DNA of 64,000 bases from an uncultured Acidobacteriia bacterium (GTDB lineage: Bacteria; Acidobacteriota; Terriglobia; Bryobacterales; Bryobacteraceae), in NCBI GenBank assembly GCA_903892565.1, contig CAITIX010000068.1, positions 1 through 64,000 of the forward strand. The letters run 5' to 3'. Under the pieces are notes generated by a model. It was not told the DNA's origin. It saw nothing but the letters and a program-made list of their open reading frames with translations, and did not search any database. Below, in pieces: positions 1,471-30,492 of the stretch. How positions within the stretch are numbered: the first letter of the stretch is position 1; each line of letters begins with the position of its first letter. The translations under genes were made by a program, and so were the position numbers.

Positions 1471-2445
1471 ATGAAAAAGTTAACACGCCGCGAAGCGCTT
1501 GCCACGGCGTCCATGGTAGCGGGTGCTGTGGGGCTCCGGGAGTCCGCCTTTGCGAAGGCTTCGCAACCCGGTACGCCCATCAGCTTCGATGTACCGGCTG
1601 GCGCCTGTGATACACACACGCATATTTTTGGAGATCCGGCGAAGTTCCCCATGTGGTCGGGACGCGTCTACACGCCCGAGGCCGCATTGCCCGATGAGAT
1701 GCACGCGCTGCATAAGGCGCTGCACATGCAGCGAGTGGTGATCGTGACGCCGAGCATCTACGGCACTGATAACGCGGCGACACTTTACGGAATGAAAGCG
1801 TACGGCAAAGGCGCTCGCGGCGTTGCGGTCATCGACGAGAAGACCACCGACAGTCAGCTCGATGCAATGGGGCGCGCCGGAATCAAAGGGATCCGCATCA
1901 ATCTGGCAACCGTGAATCAGACGGACGCCAGCGTCGGCCGCAAGCGTTTTCAAGATGCCGTGGATCGCGTGAAAGGCCGCGGCTGGCACATTCAGATGTA
2001 TGTGGCCGCATCGATCATTCCCGGGATTAAGGACCTGGTTGCGGCGTCGCCCGTGCCAGTGGTGTTCGATCACTTCGGAGGGGCGGAAACGGCCAAGGGG
2101 ATGCAACAGCCGGGATGGCCGGAGCTGCTGGAATTGGTGAAGTCGGGGAAGGCGTGGGTGAAGATGTCGGGCGCGTACCGCGCATCCACGAATGGTCCGG
2201 AATACGCGGATGTCATCCCGTACGCAAAAGCTTTAATCGAGACGAACGCGGATCATCTGGTGTGGGGCAGTGACTGGCCGCATCCGAATTCGACACCGCC
2301 TGCCGGCCGCAAAGCGACCGAATGGAATCCGGTGTGGCAGTTCGACGATGGAAAGCTACTGAATCTGGTGGCTGCATGGGCTCCGGATGCAACCATTCGC
2401 AAGAAGATCCTGGTGGATAATCCGGCGAAACTTTACGGGTTTTAG
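1471..2445 (+). CDS. Tat-exported amidohydrolase resembling 2-pyrone-4,6-dicarboxylate lactonase (LigI)
   Basis: A TIM-barrel amidohydrolase of 324 residues. Residues 1-29 form a Tat-type leader (TRREAL twin-arginine motif at 5-10, then a hydrophobic stretch and AFA). The mature part opens with the metal-binding D-T-H-T-H (47-51) and ends with VWGSDWPHPN, which supplies the catalytic aspartate, and LVDNPAKLYGF. The GTDNAATL and DHFGG segments match the layout of LigI, which hydrolyses 2-pyrone-4,6-dicarboxylate in protocatechuate 4,5-cleavage. LigI itself is cytoplasmic, so an exported form is odd and the substrate may be another lactone. A clear ribosome binding site (aaggag, 1457-1462) precedes the ATG. 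It is not in an operon. Confidence 0.8.
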   Translation: MKKLTRREALATASMVAGAVGLRESAFAKASQPGTPISFDVPAGACDTHTHIFGDPAKFPMWSGRVYTPEAALPDEMHALHKALHMQRVVIVTPSIYGTDNAATLYGMKAYGKGARGVAVIDEKTTDSQLDAMGRAGIKGIRINLATVNQTDASVGRKRFQDAVDRVKGRGWHIQMYVAASIIPGIKDLVAASPVPVVFDHFGGAETAKGMQQPGWPELLELVKSGKAWVKMSGAYRASTNGPEYADVIPYAKALIETNADHLVWGSDWPHPNSTPPAGRKATEWNPVWQFDDGKLLNLVAAWAPDATIRKKILVDNPAKLYGF

Positions 2446-22704: not shown

Positions 22705-24156
22705 TCACGCAGTCAAGGCCGCACTCGACTGGAGAAATCGAATGACCAACAGCGTTCGGTCATCGGGCGTCGAGCCAGTCTGCGAAAAGGCTGCGACTTC
22801 TTTCATGATTTCTCCGCAAATGTCACCGGGAGCAGAGCCCGCGGCAGCGGCGCCAATTTCCAGAACGCGGTCATCCCCGAACTCTTCTTCCTTTGCGTTT
22901 GCGGCTTCGCTGATGCCATCCGAGTAAACCACAAGAGTGTCCCCGGCTTCTATTTGTATGGTGCTGGCCGAGTAGGTTGCTTTCGGTAAGATACCAAGCA
23001 CGGGTCCGCCTCCGCCCAACAACTTCTCCGTCCGGCCATGCGCCTTCCTCAACAGCAGAGGCGCTCCGTGCCCCGCATTCACATATTTGAGCGTGGCGCT
23101 GAGGGGATCGAATACGGCCCAAAAGAGAGTCACAAATTGGCCGGACGCGGATCGTTCGCACAGCATCGTATTTATGCGCTCGCACGCGGTTTCATGCCAT
23201 GCGGCGGTCGAAGAACGGATGGCCCCCTGGACCACGCTCGCAAGCAATGCCGCCGGAATCCCTTTGCCGGAAACATCGCCGAGAACAATGGAAACTTTAC
23301 CGGAGTCCGCCTCGAAGAGATCGTAGAAATCGCCACCCACGTGATCGGCCGCAATGGCGCTCGCCGCAAACTCCACGTAGGGTGAGACGGATGCCGTTTT
23401 CGGCAAGAGGTCGCTCTGCACGCGGCGCGCGAGTTGCATCTCGCGTTCCAAATAGTTACCGCGAAGGTAAAGAGGCGCCCGCAATCCCATCACGATCATG
23501 GCGACCAGTAGCGCCACGGAGGAGCACAGTCCGATAATCAGATTCTGACTCAGCTCGCGAAAGGCGGAGTCCACGGCGTCCTGCCGGATGGCTACCTCTA
23601 ACAGATACGTTCCGTTGCGACTTCCCGGCGGGGGCGCGTTCCCGCGTCCGCGGCCTTCCCTGGGAACAGCGCTCTCCCCCTCGTTGCGCGGAGGACGAGG
23701 CAAGCGAAACGGCACCAACACAACCCAGGCTTTACCTTCGGGCGTGTCGATCCTGCGCCGCATGTCTTCGTGTCGTTCCACCAACTGCCACCATCGCGGA
23801 GGAACTTGCGAATTGCCTAAGGGTGACCCGGCCTGCGCTAACGACTGAATTTTCGTATCCAGCAAGCGCATCCACAATACGCGCTGCGAATTTGCTTCCA
23901 GCACGCTCTCGAGCGCGGGCGAAAGCTCGCCGACTTCGCTTATTCCCTGTGTTCGAGCAGCCGTGACCAGGTTCCCGTCCTGGCGCTCGGCTTCGCGTTG
24001 GGCTTCTTCCGGAACCAACACTCTGCCGACGTAATCATAGGTGCGGACGCATTGCACGCACAGCACCAAGGCTAGAACGACACCCGTGATGAGGGCCAGA
24101 GTCAGCCCCAAATGGTGACGCAAAGAAGTCATAGTTGCAGATGTGTCTAGAATCAC
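22705..24156 (-). CDS. Membrane SpoIIE/RsbU-type PP2C serine phosphatase
   Basis: A 483-residue sensor phosphatase. An N-terminal membrane helix (LGLTLALITGVVLALVL), a periplasmic region (about 35-190) and a second helix (LIIGLCSSVALLVAMIVMG) enclose an extracytoplasmic sensing domain. A short coiled stretch (YLEREMQLARRVQSDLLPK) leads to a PP2C domain with the metal aspartates in GGDFYDLF and VLGDVSGKG and, near the end, VVYSDGISEA and DDRTLLV. Such proteins dephosphorylate anti-sigma-factor antagonists in partner-switching systems. No antagonist or anti-sigma gene is adjacent. The frame opens with GTG at 24156; ATG at 24132 is also possible. Confidence 0.9.
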   Translation of the reverse strand: MILDTSATMTSLRHHLGLTLALITGVVLALVLCVQCVRTYDYVGRVLVPEEAQREAERQDGNLVTAARTQGISEVGELSPALESVLEANSQRVLWMRLLDTKIQSLAQAGSPLGNSQVPPRWWQLVERHEDMRRRIDTPEGKAWVVLVPFRLPRPPRNEGESAVPREGRGRGNAPPPGSRNGTYLLEVAIRQDAVDSAFRELSQNLIIGLCSSVALLVAMIVMGLRAPLYLRGNYLEREMQLARRVQSDLLPKTASVSPYVEFAASAIAADHVGGDFYDLFEADSGKVSIVLGDVSGKGIPAALLASVVQGAIRSSTAAWHETACERINTMLCERSASGQFVTLFWAVFDPLSATLKYVNAGHGAPLLLRKAHGRTEKLLGGGGPVLGILPKATYSASTIQIEAGDTLVVYSDGISEAANAKEEEFGDDRVLEIGAAAAGSAPGDICGEIMKEVAAFSQTGSTPDDRTLLVIRFLQSSAALTA

Positions 24157-24516
24157 GACCGTATCTTAAAGCATACTGAAGACGGCGCTGCCTTCGTTCT
24201 CACCAGCATGGAGCGAAGGCAATATTTAAAAGTCCGCCAGGAAGTTTTGTCGCATAGGGCAGACCTTGCTGGTGCCGAAGATAGCGATCCCCTCGTATTG
24301 TCCGCGAATCCTCGCGTACGAGCTCGATGATTGCGGTGACGATGATCACACGGCATCGTGACTTGCATCATAGCTGTCTGCGCGCGGATGAGCTACATTT
24401 GTTTGTACTTTCCATCCTGATATTCTGAAAAATCGCGCCAAGGTGGAGCTTCGCTCGGCCGTTGAAAACAAGATTAACGCGACCATGAAAACGCGAGAGG
24501 ACAAACTTTAGCAGCA
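24157..24516. other. Intergenic region without a supported gene
   Basis: No family resemblance or strong start site was found in these 360 bases. A 40-codon open frame (24208-24330) and an in-frame run ending in a stop at about 24510 were considered and not supported. A promoter for the operon that starts at 24517 is expected here, but no convincing -35/-10 pair stands out. Confidence 0.5.
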
Positions 24517-25365
24517 ATGACAATCGACATCCACCCGCACGTGATTAGCAAGGATACGGTGCGGTATCCGAACGCTCCGCTCGGGGGGAACAAGTCGGAC
24601 TGGTCGAAGGAGCATCCGGTGGAGGTCGCGGAGATGATTGCGGCCATGGATGAGGCGGGCGTTGCAAAATCGGTGCTGGTGCAAGCGTCGACTTGTTATG
24701 GCCACGATAATTCGCTGGTGGCGGATGCCGTGGCGGCACATCCGGAACGATTCACTGGAGTTTTTTCGGTGGACGTGCTCGCGCCCGATGCTGTCGAAAA
24801 GATTCGCTACTGGGTGGGGCGCAATCTCACGGGCCTGCGTTTGTTCACTGCCGGCAGCACGATGAAGGTGCAAGCCGATTGGGTGGACGATCCGCGCTCG
24901 TTCCCCGCCTGGGAATACGTGAGCGAGATCGGCATCCCCGTCTGCATGCAGATGACGGTGAAAGCGATTCCGCAGTTGATCCACATGCTGGAGCGGTTTC
25001 CAAACGCAAAGGTGATCCTGGATCATTTGGCGAAACCTTCGTTGGTCGATGGACCTCCGTATCCTGGAGCAGCGGATGTCTTTCGGCTGGCCGATTACAA
25101 AAACTTGTACTTGAAGCTGACGCCGCGCACCATCGACGAAGCGAAAAACGGCAAAGCGACGTGGGACACATTTTTCCCATTGCTTGTTTCGAAGTTCGGA
25201 GCATCGCGCATCGCCTGGGGCTCCAACTTTCCGGCATCGGGAGGATCACTCACAGCGTTGCTGAAGTTCACGCAAGAAGGTCTATCGGTGCTTTCGGCCG
25301 AAGATCGCGAGTGGATTTTCTCCAAGACCGCGTTGACGCTCTATCCGGTCCTGAAGGGGAACTAA
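24517..25365 (+). CDS. Amidohydrolase family 2 protein (LigI-related TIM barrel)
   Basis: 282 residues. The start has the metal-binding D-I-H-P-H (4-8), later VILDHLAKP and IAWGSNFPASGG. These are the amidohydrolase-2 landmarks seen in LigI, LigJ and related hydratases and lactonases of aromatic catabolism. There is no signal peptide, so it is cytoplasmic. As first gene of an operon ending in galB-galC, it may hydrolyse a pyrone lactone or decarboxylate a ring-cleavage product. It differs clearly from the exported homolog at 1471 (no GTDNAATL, no SDWPHPN). The substrate is an inference from context only. The next gene starts 3 bases after its stop. Confidence 0.78.
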   Translation: MTIDIHPHVISKDTVRYPNAPLGGNKSDWSKEHPVEVAEMIAAMDEAGVAKSVLVQASTCYGHDNSLVADAVAAHPERFTGVFSVDVLAPDAVEKIRYWVGRNLTGLRLFTAGSTMKVQADWVDDPRSFPAWEYVSEIGIPVCMQMTVKAIPQLIHMLERFPNAKVILDHLAKPSLVDGPPYPGAADVFRLADYKNLYLKLTPRTIDEAKNGKATWDTFFPLLVSKFGASRIAWGSNFPASGGSLTALLKFTQEGLSVLSAEDREWIFSKTALTLYPVLKGN

Positions 25366-25368
25366 GCC

Positions 25369-26244
25369 ATGCCTGAAGCGCTCACGCTCTCAACGTTGCT
25401 CGCAACGAATCCGAATACAGCGGCCCTGAAAAACGGAGCGATAAGCTCTCCGCTGGTTCATTTCGATTACGCGGACATCAAGACCGTGAACAGGATGTTC
25501 AAGAAGCTTGTGCGCGAGCAAGCGTTCGACCTGGCTGAGGTGGCGATCGTCACATTCCTGCAAGCAAAAGCGTATGGCAAGCCTTACGTGCTGATGCCCG
25601 CAGCAGTTGTGGTTCGCGGCCAGCATCACACGATCTTCTACAACCCTGCGAAGGGACACTTGAATCCCGGCGATCTGAACGGCAAGCGTGTGGGCGTTCG
25701 CGCTTATACGCAAACTACGGGCGCATGGCTGCGCGGCATGTTAGAAGAAGACTACGGCGTGGATTTCAAAACGATTCGTTGGATCACGTTCGAAGAGCCG
25801 CACGTCGCCGAGTATGTAGATCCTCCGTTTGTGGAGCGTGCGCCCGAAGGCAAAGAATTGCTGCAGATGTTGCAGGATGGCGAGATCGACGCGGCGATTT
25901 TCGGAAGTGAAAATCCAGAGGGACTCACGCCACTGATTCCCAATGCTGCCGCAGCCGCGCAGGACTGGGCCGCGCGCCACGGTGGCGTTCCGATCAATCA
26001 CATGATGGTGGTGAGAGAATCAATCACCGAATCTCGGCCGGACGTGATTCGCGAAGTGTACCGATTGCTCAAGGAAAGCGCGGCCGCAGCGGTACCTCCG
26101 CCGAAGAATCCACTACGATTCGGCGTGGAGAACGTGCGCAAGTCACTGGACACGATCCTCGACTACTCGACGCGGCAGGGCCTAATACCGCGGCGGTATT
26201 CCGTGGACAAACTGTTTAACGACGTCACGCGGTCACTCGAATAA
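25369..26244 (+). CDS. 4,5-dihydroxyphthalate decarboxylase-like protein (periplasmic-binding-protein fold)
   Basis: 291 residues with no signal peptide. The layout (FDLAEVAIVTFLQAKAYGKP, then HHTIFYNPAKGHLNPGDLNGKRVGVRAYTQTTGAWLRGML, then a lobe ending in DAAIFG) matches the family of Pht5, which decarboxylates 4,5-dihydroxyphthalate to protocatechuate and has a type-II binding-protein fold. Pht5 itself is nearer 330 residues, and this is shorter at the N terminus. It could instead be a binding-protein-like enzyme on a related acid. Downstream galB-galC would degrade protocatechuate ring-cleavage products, so the assignment fits the context. It sits 2 bases before the carrier gene. Confidence 0.65.
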   Translation: MPEALTLSTLLATNPNTAALKNGAISSPLVHFDYADIKTVNRMFKKLVREQAFDLAEVAIVTFLQAKAYGKPYVLMPAAVVVRGQHHTIFYNPAKGHLNPGDLNGKRVGVRAYTQTTGAWLRGMLEEDYGVDFKTIRWITFEEPHVAEYVDPPFVERAPEGKELLQMLQDGEIDAAIFGSENPEGLTPLIPNAAAAAQDWAARHGGVPINHMMVVRESITESRPDVIREVYRLLKESAAAAVPPPKNPLRFGVENVRKSLDTILDYSTRQGLIPRRYSVDKLFNDVTRSLE

Positions 26245-26246
26245 CC

Positions 26247-27542
26247 ATGCTCACGGCGACCGCAATCACGGCGAGACGCGCCTGGTACAAGGACCTTTCG
26301 CTCCAGATCCTGATCGCGATGGTGCTCGGCGCGATTACGGGTTACATATGGCCGCAAAGCGCCGATTCGATGAAGCCGCTCGGCGATCTATTCATTAAAC
26401 TGGTGCGGATGATCGTCGCCCCGATTATCTTTTGCACTGTAGTGCACGGCATCGCGAGCGTGGGCGAAGCGAAGAAGGTCGGCCGCGTTGCGATCAAAGC
26501 GCTGGTCTATTTTGAAATCGTCACGACCTTGGCGCTGGTCATTGGCTTGGTGCTGGTCAACGTGTGGGCCCCTGGTGCAGGAATGCACGTGGATCCAAAA
26601 ACATTGAGCGACAGTGGCGTGAAGGCTCCCGCGAAAACATTGGGGGTCGGCCAGTTTCTCTTGAATCTGGTTCCGTCGAGCGCCGTGGGCGCGTTTGCCG
26701 AAGGCGAAGTGATCCCCGTGTTGTTCTTTTCTGTGCTGTTCGCTTTTGGATTACTCGCGCTTGGCCCGAAGGGCAAGCCGCTCATCGAAACGATCTACTC
26801 CGTTGCGCAAGTGCTGTTTAAAGTAATCGGCTTCGTGATGTGGACCGCGCCCATCGGCGCGTTTGGAGCCATCGCATTCACGGTCGGCAAGTTTGGACCC
26901 GAGTCGCTCGTATCGCTCGGCAAGCTGGTCGGCGAGTTTTATGTATGCTGCGTGATCTTCGTCGCGCTCGTTCTGACGCCGATCGCGTTCGCCGCAGGCG
27001 TAAACATTTTGCGCCTGATCCGTTACATCGGCGCGGAACTGATGATCGTCGTTGGAACCAGCTCCGGCGAATCCGTGTTTCCGCGCATGAACGCGAAGCT
27101 GCGGCAGTTGGGCGTGGAAGAATCCATCGTCGCGCTGGTGCTACCCGCCGGATATTCGTTCAATCATGATGGCACGTGTTTGTATTGGTCCACGGCATCC
27201 GTATTCTTGGCGCAGGCGCTCGGGATCCACTTGACGATCGGACAGCAACTGGCGCTGCTCGCGACGATGCTGTTCACATCGAAAGGCGGCGCGGGAGTCG
27301 CGGGCTCCGCGATTGTGGTTCTGGCGACGACGCTCTCGGCAACGAACATCATCCCGGTAGCGGCAGTCGGGTTGATCCTCGGCGTGCATCGATTGTTATC
27401 ATCGGTGTTTGTTCCGGTAAACGTGTTGGGCAACGCACTGGCGACGATCGTCATGGGGCGCTTGGAAAAAGCTGTGGATCTGCCGACGCTGGTCTCCGAG
27501 TTGAATCGCGGGCCGGATGAAATCATCACAGAAGCATCATAG
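26247..27542 (+). CDS. Dicarboxylate/cation symporter (DctA/GltP family)
   Basis: A 431-residue SDF-family carrier in the inner membrane. The sequence opens with a charged stretch and about eight membrane helices, and the family signature is present: GTSSGESVFPRM (tip of hairpin 1), the FNHDGTCLYW segment of helix 7, and SKGGAGVAGSAIVV (hairpin 2), which together bind the dicarboxylate and cations. Family members take up succinate, malate, fumarate or aspartate. In this operon it may import a dicarboxylate related to the pathway, or export end products. It starts 2 bases after the preceding stop. Confidence 0.88.
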   Translation: MLTATAITARRAWYKDLSLQILIAMVLGAITGYIWPQSADSMKPLGDLFIKLVRMIVAPIIFCTVVHGIASVGEAKKVGRVAIKALVYFEIVTTLALVIGLVLVNVWAPGAGMHVDPKTLSDSGVKAPAKTLGVGQFLLNLVPSSAVGAFAEGEVIPVLFFSVLFAFGLLALGPKGKPLIETIYSVAQVLFKVIGFVMWTAPIGAFGAIAFTVGKFGPESLVSLGKLVGEFYVCCVIFVALVLTPIAFAAGVNILRLIRYIGAELMIVVGTSSGESVFPRMNAKLRQLGVEESIVALVLPAGYSFNHDGTCLYWSTASVFLAQALGIHLTIGQQLALLATMLFTSKGGAGVAGSAIVVLATTLSATNIIPVAAVGLILGVHRLLSSVFVPVNVLGNALATIVMGRLEKAVDLPTLVSELNRGPDEIITEAS

Positions 27543-27549
27543 GGGAAGC

Positions 27550-28275
27550 ATGAGTGATCAAAAAACAGCAGTCGTCGTGAGCGCGCATTCGGCGGATTTC
27601 GTGTGGCGCGCCGGTGGAGCGATCGCGTTGTACGCGTCGCGCGGCTATCGGATGGTGGTGGTTTGCCTGTCGTTCGGCGAGCGCGGAGAATCCGCCAAGT
27701 TGTGGAAGCAATCCGGCATGACGCTTGAAAAAGTGAAGACCGATCGTAATGACGAGGCCCAGCGCGCGGCCGATGTTTTAGGCGCCGAAGTGCGCTTCAT
27801 GGACCTCGGCGACTATCCTTTGCGCGTGCCCGACGAGGCGCTCTTCGAGCTCGCAAATCTCTATCGCGAAGTGCGTCCCGAGTTCATCCTCACGCATTCT
27901 TTCAAGGATCCCTACAACTTCGATCACCCGTTGGCGAACCACGTCGCGCAGGAAGCTCGCGTGATCGCGCAGGCGCACGGGCACGAACCGCAGATTCCGG
28001 TGATTGGCGCGCCCGGCGTGTACTTGTTCGAGCCGCATCAGCCTGAGCAGTGCGAATGGAAGCCGCAAGTGATCCTCGATATCACTTCTGTGTGGGAGAA
28101 AAAATACGCGGCATTCAAGATCATGGCCGCGCAGGAACACTTGTGGCAATACTACGAACGCGTCGCATTGCAACGCGGCGCGCAAGGTGCGCGCAACTCC
28201 AGCCGCAGTGGCATGAAGTACGGCGAAGCGTATCAGCGCGTGTTTCCAGAAGTTACGGAGATGTTTCATGAATAA
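27550..28275 (+). CDS. galB: 4-oxalomesaconate hydratase (GalB, PIG-L/LmbE fold)
   Basis: A 241-residue zinc-dependent hydratase with a PIG-L/LmbE-like fold. It matches, as I remember it, Pseudomonas putida GalB along its length: VSAHSADFVWRAGGAIALY (zinc ligands His/Asp), CLSFGERGESAKLWK, LGDYPLR, LTHSFKDPYNFDHPLANH, EPHQPEQCEWKP, and AAQEHLWQYYERVALQRG. GalB hydrates 4-oxalomesaconate to 4-carboxy-4-hydroxy-2-oxoadipate. The ATG at 27550 follows gggga; the frame is open further back but includes the previous gene. It overlaps galC by 8 bases, so the pair is translationally coupled. Confidence 0.88.
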   Translation: MSDQKTAVVVSAHSADFVWRAGGAIALYASRGYRMVVVCLSFGERGESAKLWKQSGMTLEKVKTDRNDEAQRAADVLGAEVRFMDLGDYPLRVPDEALFELANLYREVRPEFILTHSFKDPYNFDHPLANHVAQEARVIAQAHGHEPQIPVIGAPGVYLFEPHQPEQCEWKPQVILDITSVWEKKYAAFKIMAAQEHLWQYYERVALQRGAQGARNSSRSGMKYGEAYQRVFPEVTEMFHE

Positions 28276-28966
28276 GCCCGTTGTCATCACGAAGTGGGAG
28301 CGTCCGTCGATGGATGTGATGAACGCGCTGGAGCAGGCCGGCGTGTCGACGATCCACGAAGCGCAGGGCCGCACCGGATTGCTCGCGCCCTACATGCGTC
28401 CTATATATACGGGCGCGTGCGCGGCAGGCTCGGCGGTGACCGTATCGATTCCTCCCGGCGACAATCTCATGATCCACGTCGCTGTGGAAGTCTGCGGTCC
28501 CGGTGACATACTCATCGTGGTGCCGACGTCGCACTGCACCGATGGATATTTTGGCGAGTTGCTCGCCACCTCGCTCCGCACACGCGGCGTCAAGGGCCTG
28601 GTGATCGAAGCCGGATGCCGCGACATTCGCGCGCTCAGCGAAATGAAGTTCCCCGTGTGGAGCCGCGCCGTTAGCTCGCAAGGCACGGTGAAAGCCAGTC
28701 TCGGCTCCGTCAATATTCCCGTCGTCTGCGCCGGAGCACTCATTCATCCCGGCGATGTCGTCGTCGGCGATGACGATGGCGTCGTGGTTGTAAAACGCGA
28801 AGACGCCGCAGCCGTCGCGGAAGCATCCGCGAAACGCATCGCCAAAGAAGACGCAACAAGAGAGCGACTTCTCAAAGGCGAATCCGGACTCGATATCTAC
28901 GGCTGGCGCCAAAAGCTCACGGCGCTTGGTTTGGAATACCGACCGCCGATCGAGGACACGAAGTAG
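28268..28966 (+). CDS. galC: 4-carboxy-4-hydroxy-2-oxoadipate aldolase (GalC/LigK, RraA fold)
   Basis: A 232-residue class II aldolase of the RraA-like family. Landmarks are STIHEAQGRTGLLAPYMRPI, AGSAVTV, DGYFGELLATSLRTRG, VIEAGCRDIR (the metal-site region), FPVWSRAV and GDDDGVVVV. It cleaves 4-carboxy-4-hydroxy-2-oxoadipate to pyruvate and oxaloacetate and often has oxaloacetate decarboxylase activity. As the last gene after galB it completes the lower part of the gallate/protocatechuate 4,5-cleavage route. No ring-cleavage dioxygenase, pyrone-forming dehydrogenase or regulator is seen in this window. Confidence 0.88.
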   Translation: MNKPVVITKWERPSMDVMNALEQAGVSTIHEAQGRTGLLAPYMRPIYTGACAAGSAVTVSIPPGDNLMIHVAVEVCGPGDILIVVPTSHCTDGYFGELLATSLRTRGVKGLVIEAGCRDIRALSEMKFPVWSRAVSSQGTVKASLGSVNIPVVCAGALIHPGDVVVGDDDGVVVVKREDAAAVAEASAKRIAKEDATRERLLKGESGLDIYGWRQKLTALGLEYRPPIEDTK

Positions 28967-29190
28967 CACCGCCGAATCGCACGAGCACAGCGCTGAGCTA
29001 TTGTTTCCCCATAGTCGCTTTTTATACCCGCGAGATGGATCGAGCGGGCGAGGCGGCATTTCAACATTCAGCTAAGCACTGATCCGCGAGCGACTTAAAA
29101 AGCCCCTTGGCGTGATGGCTTCGAATCGCGCTTATCGAAATTACTTCGCTCAGCCATCAGAATTATCTATGAGCGTTCATGAAATCGTCA

Positions 29191-29206
29191 TGGTATAAAA
29201 TAACAA
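29191..29206 (+). promoter_or_regulatory. Probable extended -10 promoter for the porin-urt operon
   Basis: TGGTATAAA (29191-29199) fits the extended -10 pattern TGNTATAAT, continued by AT. No good -35 hexamer lies at the usual distance, which is normal for extended -10 promoters. Transcription would start near 29206, giving a leader of about 200 bases before the porin start. The surrounding stretch 28967-29409 has no gene. Confidence 0.45.
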
Positions 29207-29318
29207 TCTAACTGAGTTCCGTTCGTTAGATTATGGGGCGACCGCTTCTCCGTCTTTAGTGGCCCCCCTTGCACTAGTCAGCAGCGTTTTCACGCCGTCT
29301 CCGGACGCGCGTAATCTA
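29205..29318 (+). promoter_or_regulatory. Inverted repeat with an alternative pairing partner in the porin-urt leader
   Basis: AATCTAAC (29205-29212) and GTTAGATT (29225-29232) form perfect 8-bp arms around a 12-base loop, starting at the predicted transcript start. TAATCTA (29312-29318) can pair with TAGATTA (29227-29233), so the second arm has two mutually exclusive partners. This looks like either an operator at the start site or a switchable leader RNA. No known riboswitch class was recognised. Confidence 0.4.
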
Positions 29319-29409
29319 TCCCCGCGCTGACCTGCCCCACGCCGGGCAACCCAATACAGCAAACAAATTAACCAGGGTGCTTCGTGTGCCCAGAGGAGAA
29401 GATTTACTC

Positions 29410-30492
29410 ATGACAAGACAAATTGTCCGCAATGAGCTTTCGTTCATTGCGCGGCGTTGTGCCCCTGCTGTACCAATCCTGCTTGGGGTGCTCTCATTGG
29501 CGGTGCCGTCTTCGGCACAGGTCAATCTGGGCCCCGTAACGGTAGGTGCAGGATTGCAGACGAGTTTTGCCCACACCGAGCCGGATGGTGGCAGCTCCAC
29601 CGATCAGTTCATGGTTGGTCATGCCCGTCTTTACGTCAGTGGACCGATTACCGAACAGATCAAGTTCATGTTCAATACGGACTACGACAGCAGCACGAAC
29701 AAGATCGGCATCATGGATGCGGTAGGTCAGATCGGCATAAATTCGAAGTTCAACATCTGGGCTGGACGCTTCCTGCCGCCTAGTGATCGCGCAAACCTAT
29801 ATGGTCCGTTCTACTCGCATAACTGGGCGGTGTACACGGACGGCATCCAGGACGGATATCCGTTTGTCTTCCAAGGCCGGGACAACGGCGTTGCCTATTG
29901 GGGAGATTTCGGAAAGAAGACGAAGGTGAAACTTTCGGTCGGTGCTTTTGACGGAGGAAGCGCAACCGGAAAATCCGATGTCCTGGGCGCAGCGCGCGTA
30001 CAGGTGGACTTCTGGGATCCGGAAGACGGCTACTACCTGAACGGCACCTACTATGGCGATAAGAACCTGCTGGCCATCGGTGCGGCGAGCCAAATTCAGA
30101 ATGGCCACACGGCGTCTACCATCGATTTCCTCCTCGAAAGAAAAACACCGGGGGGCGGCGCGTTCTCGATCGAGAGTGAATATTCGAACTACAACCGCTT
30201 GGGCGGCTACAACGGGTCCTATGCGAAGAGTCAGGGCGCTTACGGGCTTGCCAGCTACATGTTCCCGAAGGCCGTGGGCATGGGCAAAATCGAACTGCTG
30301 GGCAAATACGCGAAGGCGGATTTCACGCACGGCAGCGCGCCCAGCTACAACCAGAAAACCACGGAAATCAACGTCAACTACGTGATCAAGCAGTTCAAGG
30401 CTCGCGTGATGACGTTCTATAAGGACACGAGATTCAACCGTCTAGTGCCCAACTCCTGGCAAGCGGGAGTCGGACTCCAGATCCAGATGTAA
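29410..30492 (+). CDS. Outer-membrane porin (OprO/P-like beta-barrel)
   Basis: 360 residues from the ATG at 29410, which follows gaggagaag. The signal peptide (APAVPILLGVLSLAVPSSAQ) precedes a beta-barrel rich in alternating aromatic and Gly/Tyr strands (GHARLYVSGPITEQIKFMFN, DNGVAYWGDFGKKTKVKLSVGAF, KARVMTFYKD) that ends on the barrel-typical hydrophobic terminus QIQM. Its first half (GRFLPPSDR) resembles phosphate-selective OprO/OprP porins. It precedes urtA by 30 bases, so it probably lets urea or short amides through the outer membrane. The function follows from position and is inference. Confidence 0.75.
   Translation: MTRQIVRNELSFIARRCAPAVPILLGVLSLAVPSSAQVNLGPVTVGAGLQTSFAHTEPDGGSSTDQFMVGHARLYVSGPITEQIKFMFNTDYDSSTNKIGIMDAVGQIGINSKFNIWAGRFLPPSDRANLYGPFYSHNWAVYTDGIQDGYPFVFQGRDNGVAYWGDFGKKTKVKLSVGAFDGGSATGKSDVLGAARVQVDFWDPEDGYYLNGTYYGDKNLLAIGAASQIQNGHTASTIDFLLERKTPGGGAFSIESEYSNYNRLGGYNGSYAKSQGAYGLASYMFPKAVGMGKIELLGKYAKADFTHGSAPSYNQKTTEINVNYVIKQFKARVMTFYKDTRFNRLVPNSWQAGVGLQIQM

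Follow-up and report, generated by a model that had tools for sequence, protein, structure and literature searches.

How a bacterium that encodes the hydratase and the aldolase of gallate degradation would obtain the substrate of the hydratase, when the dioxygenase and the tautomerase of the pathway are not found, is the question raised by a five-gene operon of an uncultured Acidobacteriia bacterium (Bryobacteraceae; assembly GCA_903892565.1). The operon occupied 24517-28966 on the + strand of the window, i.e., the whole 64,000-nucleotide stretch analyzed here (positions 1 to 64,000 of contig CAITIX010000068.1), and encoded in order an amidohydrolase (amidoN), a Pht5-like protein (Pht5L), a DctA-type carrier, GalB, and GalC, with spacers of 3, 2, and 7 bases and then an 8-base overlap of GalB and GalC. 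These gene calls and coordinates agreed with an earlier model-made reading of the letters (the sequence-only reading), which had described a compact five-gene operon with spacings or overlaps of 2-8 bases. The features were as follows:

24517..25365, + strand: amidoN, amidohydrolase of LigI/cog3618 fold, Asn237 replacing the presumed catalytic Asp248 of LigI; PF04909 (Amidohydro_2), 115 bits
25369..26244, + strand: Pht5L, Pht5-like protein with a substrate-binding-protein fold; PF09084 (NMT1/THI5-like), 32 bits
26247..27542, + strand: DctA-type dicarboxylate carrier; PF00375 (SDF dicarboxylate symporter), 332 bits
27550..28275, + strand: GalB, predicted hydratase of 4-oxalomesaconate enol/2-keto-4-carboxy-3-hexenedioate; PIG-L, 77 bits; PDB 5cgz, 354 bits
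28268..28966, + strand: GalC, predicted 4-carboxy-4-hydroxy-2-oxoadipate (CHA) aldolase; RraA-like, 147 bits; TIGR02798, 323 bits
24157..24516, no strand: upstream intergenic stretch; the divergent neighbor is a SpoIIE-type phosphatase gene

The answer proposed here, held with slightly more confidence than doubt, was that this soil bacterium would turn an imported di- or tricarboxylate into the GalB substrate by means of the amidoN-Pht5L pair, with no ring-cleaving dioxygenase of its own. Four steps would be involved: (i) DctA would import a di- or tricarboxylic acid, as expected from its family; (ii) amidoN and Pht5L would, as a pair, convert this acid to the tautomer used by GalB (the enol or 2-keto-4-carboxy-3-hexenedioate), as suggested by their pairing and their co-occurrence with GalB or LigJ; (iii) GalB would convert the tautomer to CHA; and (iv) GalC would convert CHA to pyruvate plus oxaloacetate, steps (iii) and (iv) following from strong homology and conserved active sites. 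A proton shift or a decarboxylation was the favored role for the pair.

The fourth and fifth proteins are assigned as GalB and GalC on family matches and active-site residues, which upheld the earlier match of these two genes to gallate/protocatechuate 4,5-cleavage enzymes. GalB matched the Pseudomonas putida GalB structure (PDB 5cgz) at 354 bits, the second-best structure reaching only 31 bits, and its motif SAHSADFVW was identical to that of 5cgz. The hallmark of GalB is presumably an Ala substituting the general-base Asp of PIG-L deacetylases; Ala stood at this site in the window GalB as aligned to 5cgz, and Ala or Gly did so in all nine GalB rows. The GERGES and EPHQPE motifs also aligned with 5cgz, around the catalytic Glu and His, which we take to be Glu48 and His164 in KT2440 GalB. 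GalC exceeded the NCBIfam cut-offs of TIGR02798 (323 bits against 304.5) and NF006731 (351 against 179) and matched PDB 3noj at 276 bits; all 23 GalC rows (one gene counted twice) contained the Arg-Asp pair (Arg123-Asp124), whose residue roles are known from P. putida F1 CHA aldolase (PMC5065237). Two further sources describe a pathway order in which 4-oxalomesaconate is tautomerized by GalD/LigU, hydrated by GalB/LigJ, and cleaved by GalC/LigK (PMC12314914), with GalB requiring the tautomerized substrate (PMC9942251 and PMC12314914) and, in reactions lacking GalD, accepting no form but the enol (PMC9942251).

The inventory of feeder enzymes was taken from the window genome (4.63 Mb, 454 contigs, 95.6% complete, 3.97% contamination), in which absences are strong, not absolute. 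Its sole LigB-family match was a 4,5-DOPA dioxygenase (NF007914, 340 bits; cut-off 233), and neither GalA nor LigAB was found by this LigB-family search at 95.6% completeness. The single PF00775 (intradiol) match carried a Dioxygenase_N domain at its N-terminus, as catechol-type enzymes do; it stayed below the cut-off of every NCBIfam model that it matched, that of protocatechuate 3,4-dioxygenase included, and the genome yielded no other candidate for that enzyme. This lone protein was rejected as a source of 2-pyrone-4,6-dicarboxylate (PDC), being of catechol type with no PcaGH pair. GalD/LigU (PrpF family, PF04303) had no match in the genome. A hidden second gal cluster was rejected, since GalC was single and so was true GalB (a second GalB match had merely 27 bits); the contrary case envisaged in the sequence-only reading, i.e., dioxygenases elsewhere with their own galB/galC copies, was accordingly not encountered. 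The missing dioxygenase pointed out in that reading now extended genome-wide, covering LigB-type enzymes (except the DOPA dioxygenase) and protocatechuate 3,4-dioxygenases; the search did not extend to Rieske oxygenases or to other kinds of ring-opening enzyme.

By homology, the operon is predicted to work like the lower gallate pathway; since searches for the dioxygenase and the tautomerase detected neither, it is not classed as a complete pathway of gallate degradation or of protocatechuate 4,5-cleavage. It resembled the gallate pathway of P. putida KT2440 (galTAP, galBCD) in having adjacent GalB and GalC, as judged from homology and motifs, but differed in that neither GalA nor GalD was detected in operon or genome (GalT and GalP were not searched) and that amidoN, Pht5L, and a DctA-type carrier were present. 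With the protocatechuate 4,5-cleavage pathway (LigABC, LigI, LigU, LigJ, and LigK; Comamonas pmd), it shared the hydratase and aldolase steps, LigJ standing for GalB in relatives, whereas the window genome had no detected LigAB or LigU-family protein, and its LigI-fold protein lacked the catalytic Asp. The acid is probably imported ready-made in the window genome, because the carrier is of dicarboxylate type (497 bits against the NCBIfam DctA model NF002461; cut-off 513) and no ring-opening enzyme leading to 4-oxalomesaconate was found; this is in line with the imported or already open acid of the sequence-only reading.

AmidoN had the fold of LigI and other cog3618 structures (Z 23.8-26.1), i.e., a barrel with the HxH motif and a third His; these comparisons used Foldseek and VIA-align 2, and folds absent from their lists were not taken as excluded. 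It differed from LigI in its low similarity (39 bits to PDB 4dia; ~20% identity) and at the position of LigI Asp248, at the end of strand 8, which we take to be the catalytic residue: the counterpart was Asn237 in amidoN. Asn occurred there in (i) 19 of 19 aligned rows (L060, with an overlong frame, and L053, L070, and L071 being left out), (ii) all 20 rows that extended to strand 8 among the 21 of another alignment, the remaining one (L053) having Asn in its second frame, and (iii) all 11 plasmid loci, a 46% paralogue, and L155. As a control, 20 of the 32 PF04909 matches of the window genome were aligned: 18 had Asp, one was amidoN itself, and one (L004) was misaligned; Asp was also present in all seven canonical LigI proteins checked, including that of L117. 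The amidohydrolase of L053 (9092-9954), from a same-genus relative, ran over two overlapping frames, owing either to a frameshift or to misassembly, and was scored as present. A LigI-type lactonase identity of amidoN was rejected on account of Asn in place of Asp, and the lactone hydrolysis earlier ascribed to the first protein was not supported: all relatives checked have Asn where LigI has its catalytic Asp, versus Asp in 18 of the 19 other aligned PF04909 proteins.

The same position bears on a route in which DctA would import PDC, amidoN would hydrolyze it in the manner of LigI, and Pht5L would act as GalD/LigU ahead of GalB and GalC. This gene set would parallel the GalC-GalB-LigI-PrpF cluster of a same-class relative (G112), and amidoN has the LigI fold, with one pocket-region Arg aligning by eye with a LigI Arg. 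Against it, Asn was found in all rows, PDB 4dia being itself an engineered D248N form of LigI, and genomes owning the pair (e.g., those of L104, L113, L114, L115, L118, and L158) also had a canonical LigI with Asp; therefore, the pair should have another role, and hydrolysis of imported PDC appears improbable. It is also unlikely that amidoN is catalytically dead and only binds or activates Pht5L as the sole catalyst: the tight pairing and the consistent lack of the conserved Asp in the rows checked would fit, but His170 was invariant and His6 and His8 nearly so in the amidoN rows, many further residues were conserved, which suggests selection for catalysis, and the two genes were not adjacent in LigJ-bearing Burkholderiales operons. 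AmidoN is probably a non-hydrolytic barrel enzyme, e.g., an isomerase, tautomerase, or lyase.

Pht5L was closest to the 4,5-dihydroxyphthalate decarboxylase of Comamonas testosteroni (PDB 9jp7) at 78 bits (117 bits with the family profile) and superimposed on it with Z 27.9 and a root-mean-square deviation of 2.7 over 286 residues; the next-closest structures were binding proteins and enzymes of the same fold such as MqnD and Thi5. The two proteins were alike in fold and core residues (by eye, Glu57, Arg83, His87, Thr116, Trp120, Arg122, and His211 in window numbering), but Pht5L was shorter, had 24-27% identity, and conserved other residues: His86, Arg111, Glu142, His145, Glu148, and Asn210 were invariant in 22 Pht5L rows (L071 left out) and by eye differed in 9jp7, so the chemistry of Pht5L is not readable from its fold. 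Pht5L as a binding protein of an ATP-binding cassette (ABC) transporter was rejected: no signal peptide was seen by eye, the operon had no ABC genes, and the closest structure was an enzyme. Pht5L probably either decarboxylates its substrate, in keeping with its fold, or shifts a proton as an isomerase that takes the place of GalD/LigU.

The decarboxylase likeness raises phthalate catabolism, with Pht5L turning 4,5-dihydroxyphthalate into protocatechuate and an unassembled or unrecognized enzyme cleaving the ring. Besides the closest solved structure, a 43% Pht5L relative in Roseomonas is in its favor, lying within a ~14-kb span with an annotated Rieske alpha subunit, a LigB-family dioxygenase, LigI, and GalC. 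This explanation nevertheless seems very unlikely for the window: the genome yielded no LigAB, GalA, or protocatechuate 3,4-dioxygenase (a genome-wide search that did not include Rieske oxygenases), the residues invariant in the 22 Pht5L rows (Arg111, Asn210, and others) differ in the decarboxylase, and the operon had no oxygenase or phthalate genes. The phthalate decarboxylation offered in the sequence-only reading was likewise not supported, the operon having no oxygenase gene and the genome, within that search, no LigAB. In the Roseomonas gilardii plasmid (L179 and L183), the gene order was GalC-Pht5L-TctC-TctC-LigI-DUF1932, with a PDR/VanB reductase, the LigB-family dioxygenase, and the annotated alpha subunit of a Rieske oxygenase all within ~14 kb, and a phthalate-type use of the Pht5L relative is possible there.

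The pair itself was conserved in relatives. A scan of genome contigs gave 23 loci, of which L073 (28% identity) was set aside, leaving 22 close loci from Acidobacteriota and Alphaproteobacteria; amidoN lay directly upstream of Pht5L in 20 of the 21 testable relatives (20 of the 22 close loci), L071 beginning inside Pht5L and thus not being counted for adjacency. DctA came after the pair in 8 of the 22 loci, a TctC gene lay divergently upstream of it in 7 (Pfam confirmation for one), and L063 had a DASS/citrate-type carrier as well. On plasmids, where homologues were counted from the best 30 rows of 100 matching records, amidoN at ≥48% identity (at least this value) was found in at least 10 of the 100 records. 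The 11 loci examined in those 10 records (Betaproteobacteria and Paracoccus) all had Pht5L together with amidoN: four had the window order amidoN-Pht5L-DctA, with LigJ at 67-68% elsewhere in those records, and LigJ directly preceded amidoN in five and lay within ~5 kb in seven. Of the gene combination that the sequence-only reading had called unfamiliar, the pair, often accompanied by DctA, is common to relatives (Acidobacteriota, Alphaproteobacteria, and Betaproteobacteria); the trio amidoN-Pht5L-DctA directly followed by GalB-GalC was seen only in the window among the loci examined, some of which ended soon after the trio.

The pair was linked with the hydratase step across 22 searched genomes with Pht5L (21 relatives plus the window genome; the genome of L058 left out), 20 of which had the pair side by side; G414 (L070) and G415 (L071) had Pht5L without a visible adjacent amidoN. 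GalB or LigJ occurred in all 22, with GalB (E < 1e-90) in 9, LigJ in 14 (13 at ≥62% identity and one at 44%), and both in one. GalC (TIGR02798) was found in 19 (17 above cut-off). The background rate, available for the phylum sample only and not for Alphaproteobacteria, was 13 of 396 Acidobacteriota (GalB in 4 and LigJ in 9; E limits 1e-30 and 1e-60, with the best few first-look candidates per genome scored). All five sample genomes with Pht5L at E <= 1e-45 had GalB or LigJ (hypergeometric 1.6e-8, relatedness ignored). Two sets of matches fell at the same coordinates, and G398 (the genome of L053, an Acidobacteria metagenome-assembled genome) and G289, called the same genus as the window genome, are apparently the same genome, as are G407 and G373; these relatives agree with Acidobacteriota as the phylum of the window genome. 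PrpF (PF04303) was absent from 15 of the 22 genomes, including all eight from Acidobacteriota (the window genome and seven others).

The genes also met in other arrangements: (i) L069 had amidoN-Pht5L-DctA-LigJ, where the stretch ended, with LigJ in the place of the window GalB, a non-homologous exchange; (ii) in L155, LigJ lay near amidoN, three Pht5L copies, two TctC genes, a flavin adenine dinucleotide (FAD) monooxygenase, a dienelactone-hydrolase-family protein, and an RraA aldolase; (iii) Pht5L paralogues (44-45%) without amidoN lay near GalB-GalC in L106 and L108 (a GntR gene between in L108); (iv) further paralogues without amidoN lay by LigJ in L181 and L186 and overlapped GalC in L179; and (v) Phyllobacterium had the order Pht5L-LigJ-alcohol dehydrogenase-RraA with a TctABC system. 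These contexts bear on a chance assembly, in which the trio and GalB-GalC would have unrelated jobs and share a transcript in this genome alone. None of the 23 scanned loci had a GalB or GalC match, and in same-genus G289 the pair and LigJ were on separate contigs, as chance would allow; yet five further arrangements (L069, L155, L106/L108, Burkholderiales operons, and L186) brought the pair or Pht5L together with LigJ, GalB, or GalC, and the co-occurrence with GalB or LigJ was 22 of 22, leaving chance assembly with little probability.

Conversion of an imported acid by the pair was preferred over these alternatives, and several observations weigh against it. The activities and substrates of amidoN and Pht5L are predicted from sequence and gene context. 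L070 had Pht5L without an adjacent amidoN, 15 of the 20 sample genomes with Pht5L relatives (the weaker ones) had no GalB or LigJ match, Pht5L was missing from 8 of the 13 sample genomes that encode either hydratase, and GalC was not found in 3 of the 22 searched genomes. PrpF was also outside the fetched stretches of the canonical Lig clusters L113, L114, L117, and L118; of these four alphaproteobacterial genomes, those of L113, L117, and L118 had PF04303 elsewhere and that of L114 did not. PrpF absence from an operon thus proves little, because canonical Lig cluster stretches lack it too, three having it elsewhere. A LigB-family protein occurred in 18 of the 22 genomes with Pht5L; four lacked one, and the window genome and G399 had only the DOPA dioxygenase.

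In Acidovorax, Diaphorobacter, Paraburkholderia, and Cupriavidus, moreover, the pair was accompanied by an HpcH aldolase, LigJ, a distantly related LigB-family protein (46 bits in Acidovorax), and sometimes a thiamine pyrophosphate (TPP) enzyme. Ring cleavage may be part of the pathway there, and the substrate of the Burkholderiales pair may be a product of cleavage or a compound that precedes it, not an imported acid. The Burkholderiales operon had the order substrate-binding protein-LigJ-amidoN-(transporter)-LigB-like-HpcH-(TPP)-Pht5L (L175, L176, L180, and L182; L184 without the LigB-like gene), its amidoN and Pht5L being 46-54% identical to those of the window; unlike in the window operon, the hydratase was LigJ rather than GalB, the aldolase was of HpcH rather than GalC type, and a LigB-family protein was usually included. 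We know of no published function for this operon. The distant LigB-family protein of L175 (12877-13875) had 332 amino acids and 46 bits to PF02900 and was annotated as a protocatechuate 3,4-dioxygenase. Pair members occurred in environmental isolates of Paraburkholderia and Acidovorax.

Around the operon, a promoter scan of 24100-29500 gave 2 sites against 2.5 expected, none of them promoter-like within 24157..24516. Starting 410 bases 3' of the operon were a porin-like gene, a Peripla_BP_5 binding protein, and a branched-chain-type permease; the porin-like protein (29377-30492, + strand; recognized by eye, no Pfam match) headed this Peripla_BP_5 transporter set, and in Paraburkholderia an annotated porin came after amidoN-Pht5L-DctA. 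At 1471-2445 (+ strand), 22 kb from the operon, the window encoded a LigI-like lactonase that retained the catalytic Asp (GSDWPHP) and whose N-terminus was, by eye, twin-arginine-like; it had 35% identity to alphaproteobacterial LigI and 209 bits against the NCBIfam 4-sulfomuconolactone hydrolase (below the cut-off of 500), and it could be a candidate extracytoplasmic maker of 4-oxalomesaconate.

Two further protein families lay close to GalC in relatives. A DUF1932/6-phosphogluconate-dehydrogenase-like protein (L113, 9063-10034) was located between GalC and LigJ in L113, L114, L117, and L118 and next to GalC in L104 (labeled by Pfam for L113 and by clustering for the other four), all being canonical Lig clusters without a PrpF-type LigU in the stretch fetched; it may be a candidate for the missing tautomerase or for a redox step, and in L114 another protein may do the tautomerase step. 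DUF6282 occurred within a few kb of GalC in L163 (10094-11020; Pfam), L167 (8283-9209), and L121 (6836-7909), the last two by eye; L163 and L167 also had a LigB-family protein of 392-394 amino acids nearby, and these three Acidobacteriota stretches were without PrpF.

A main exit of lignin carbon, the gallate/protocatechuate 4,5-cleavage trunk is also a target for producing the polymer precursor PDC. In the annotated records examined, the pair was labeled "amidohydrolase family protein" and "(phosphate) ABC transporter substrate-binding protein", and nothing on an amidohydrolase/Pht5-like pair appeared among the listed titles and abstract openings of open-licence PubMed Central papers (10 of 27 in one case). 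The new route suggested by the sequence-only reading is possible. Tentatively, and with rather more doubt than confidence, the pair may be taken as an unrecognized maker of the GalB/LigJ substrate, either by replacing GalD/LigU with a natural "D248N" LigI-fold and/or a decarboxylase-fold enzyme or by providing a dioxygenase-free entry of an imported polycarboxylate to the gallate trunk. Where searches miss the textbook dioxygenase or tautomerase, a widespread pair tied to the hydratase hints at a step or entry for which current annotation has no name; recurring beside hydratase/aldolase steps in several distant bacterial groups, it may be an unrecognized entry to, or a missing step of, a known pathway.

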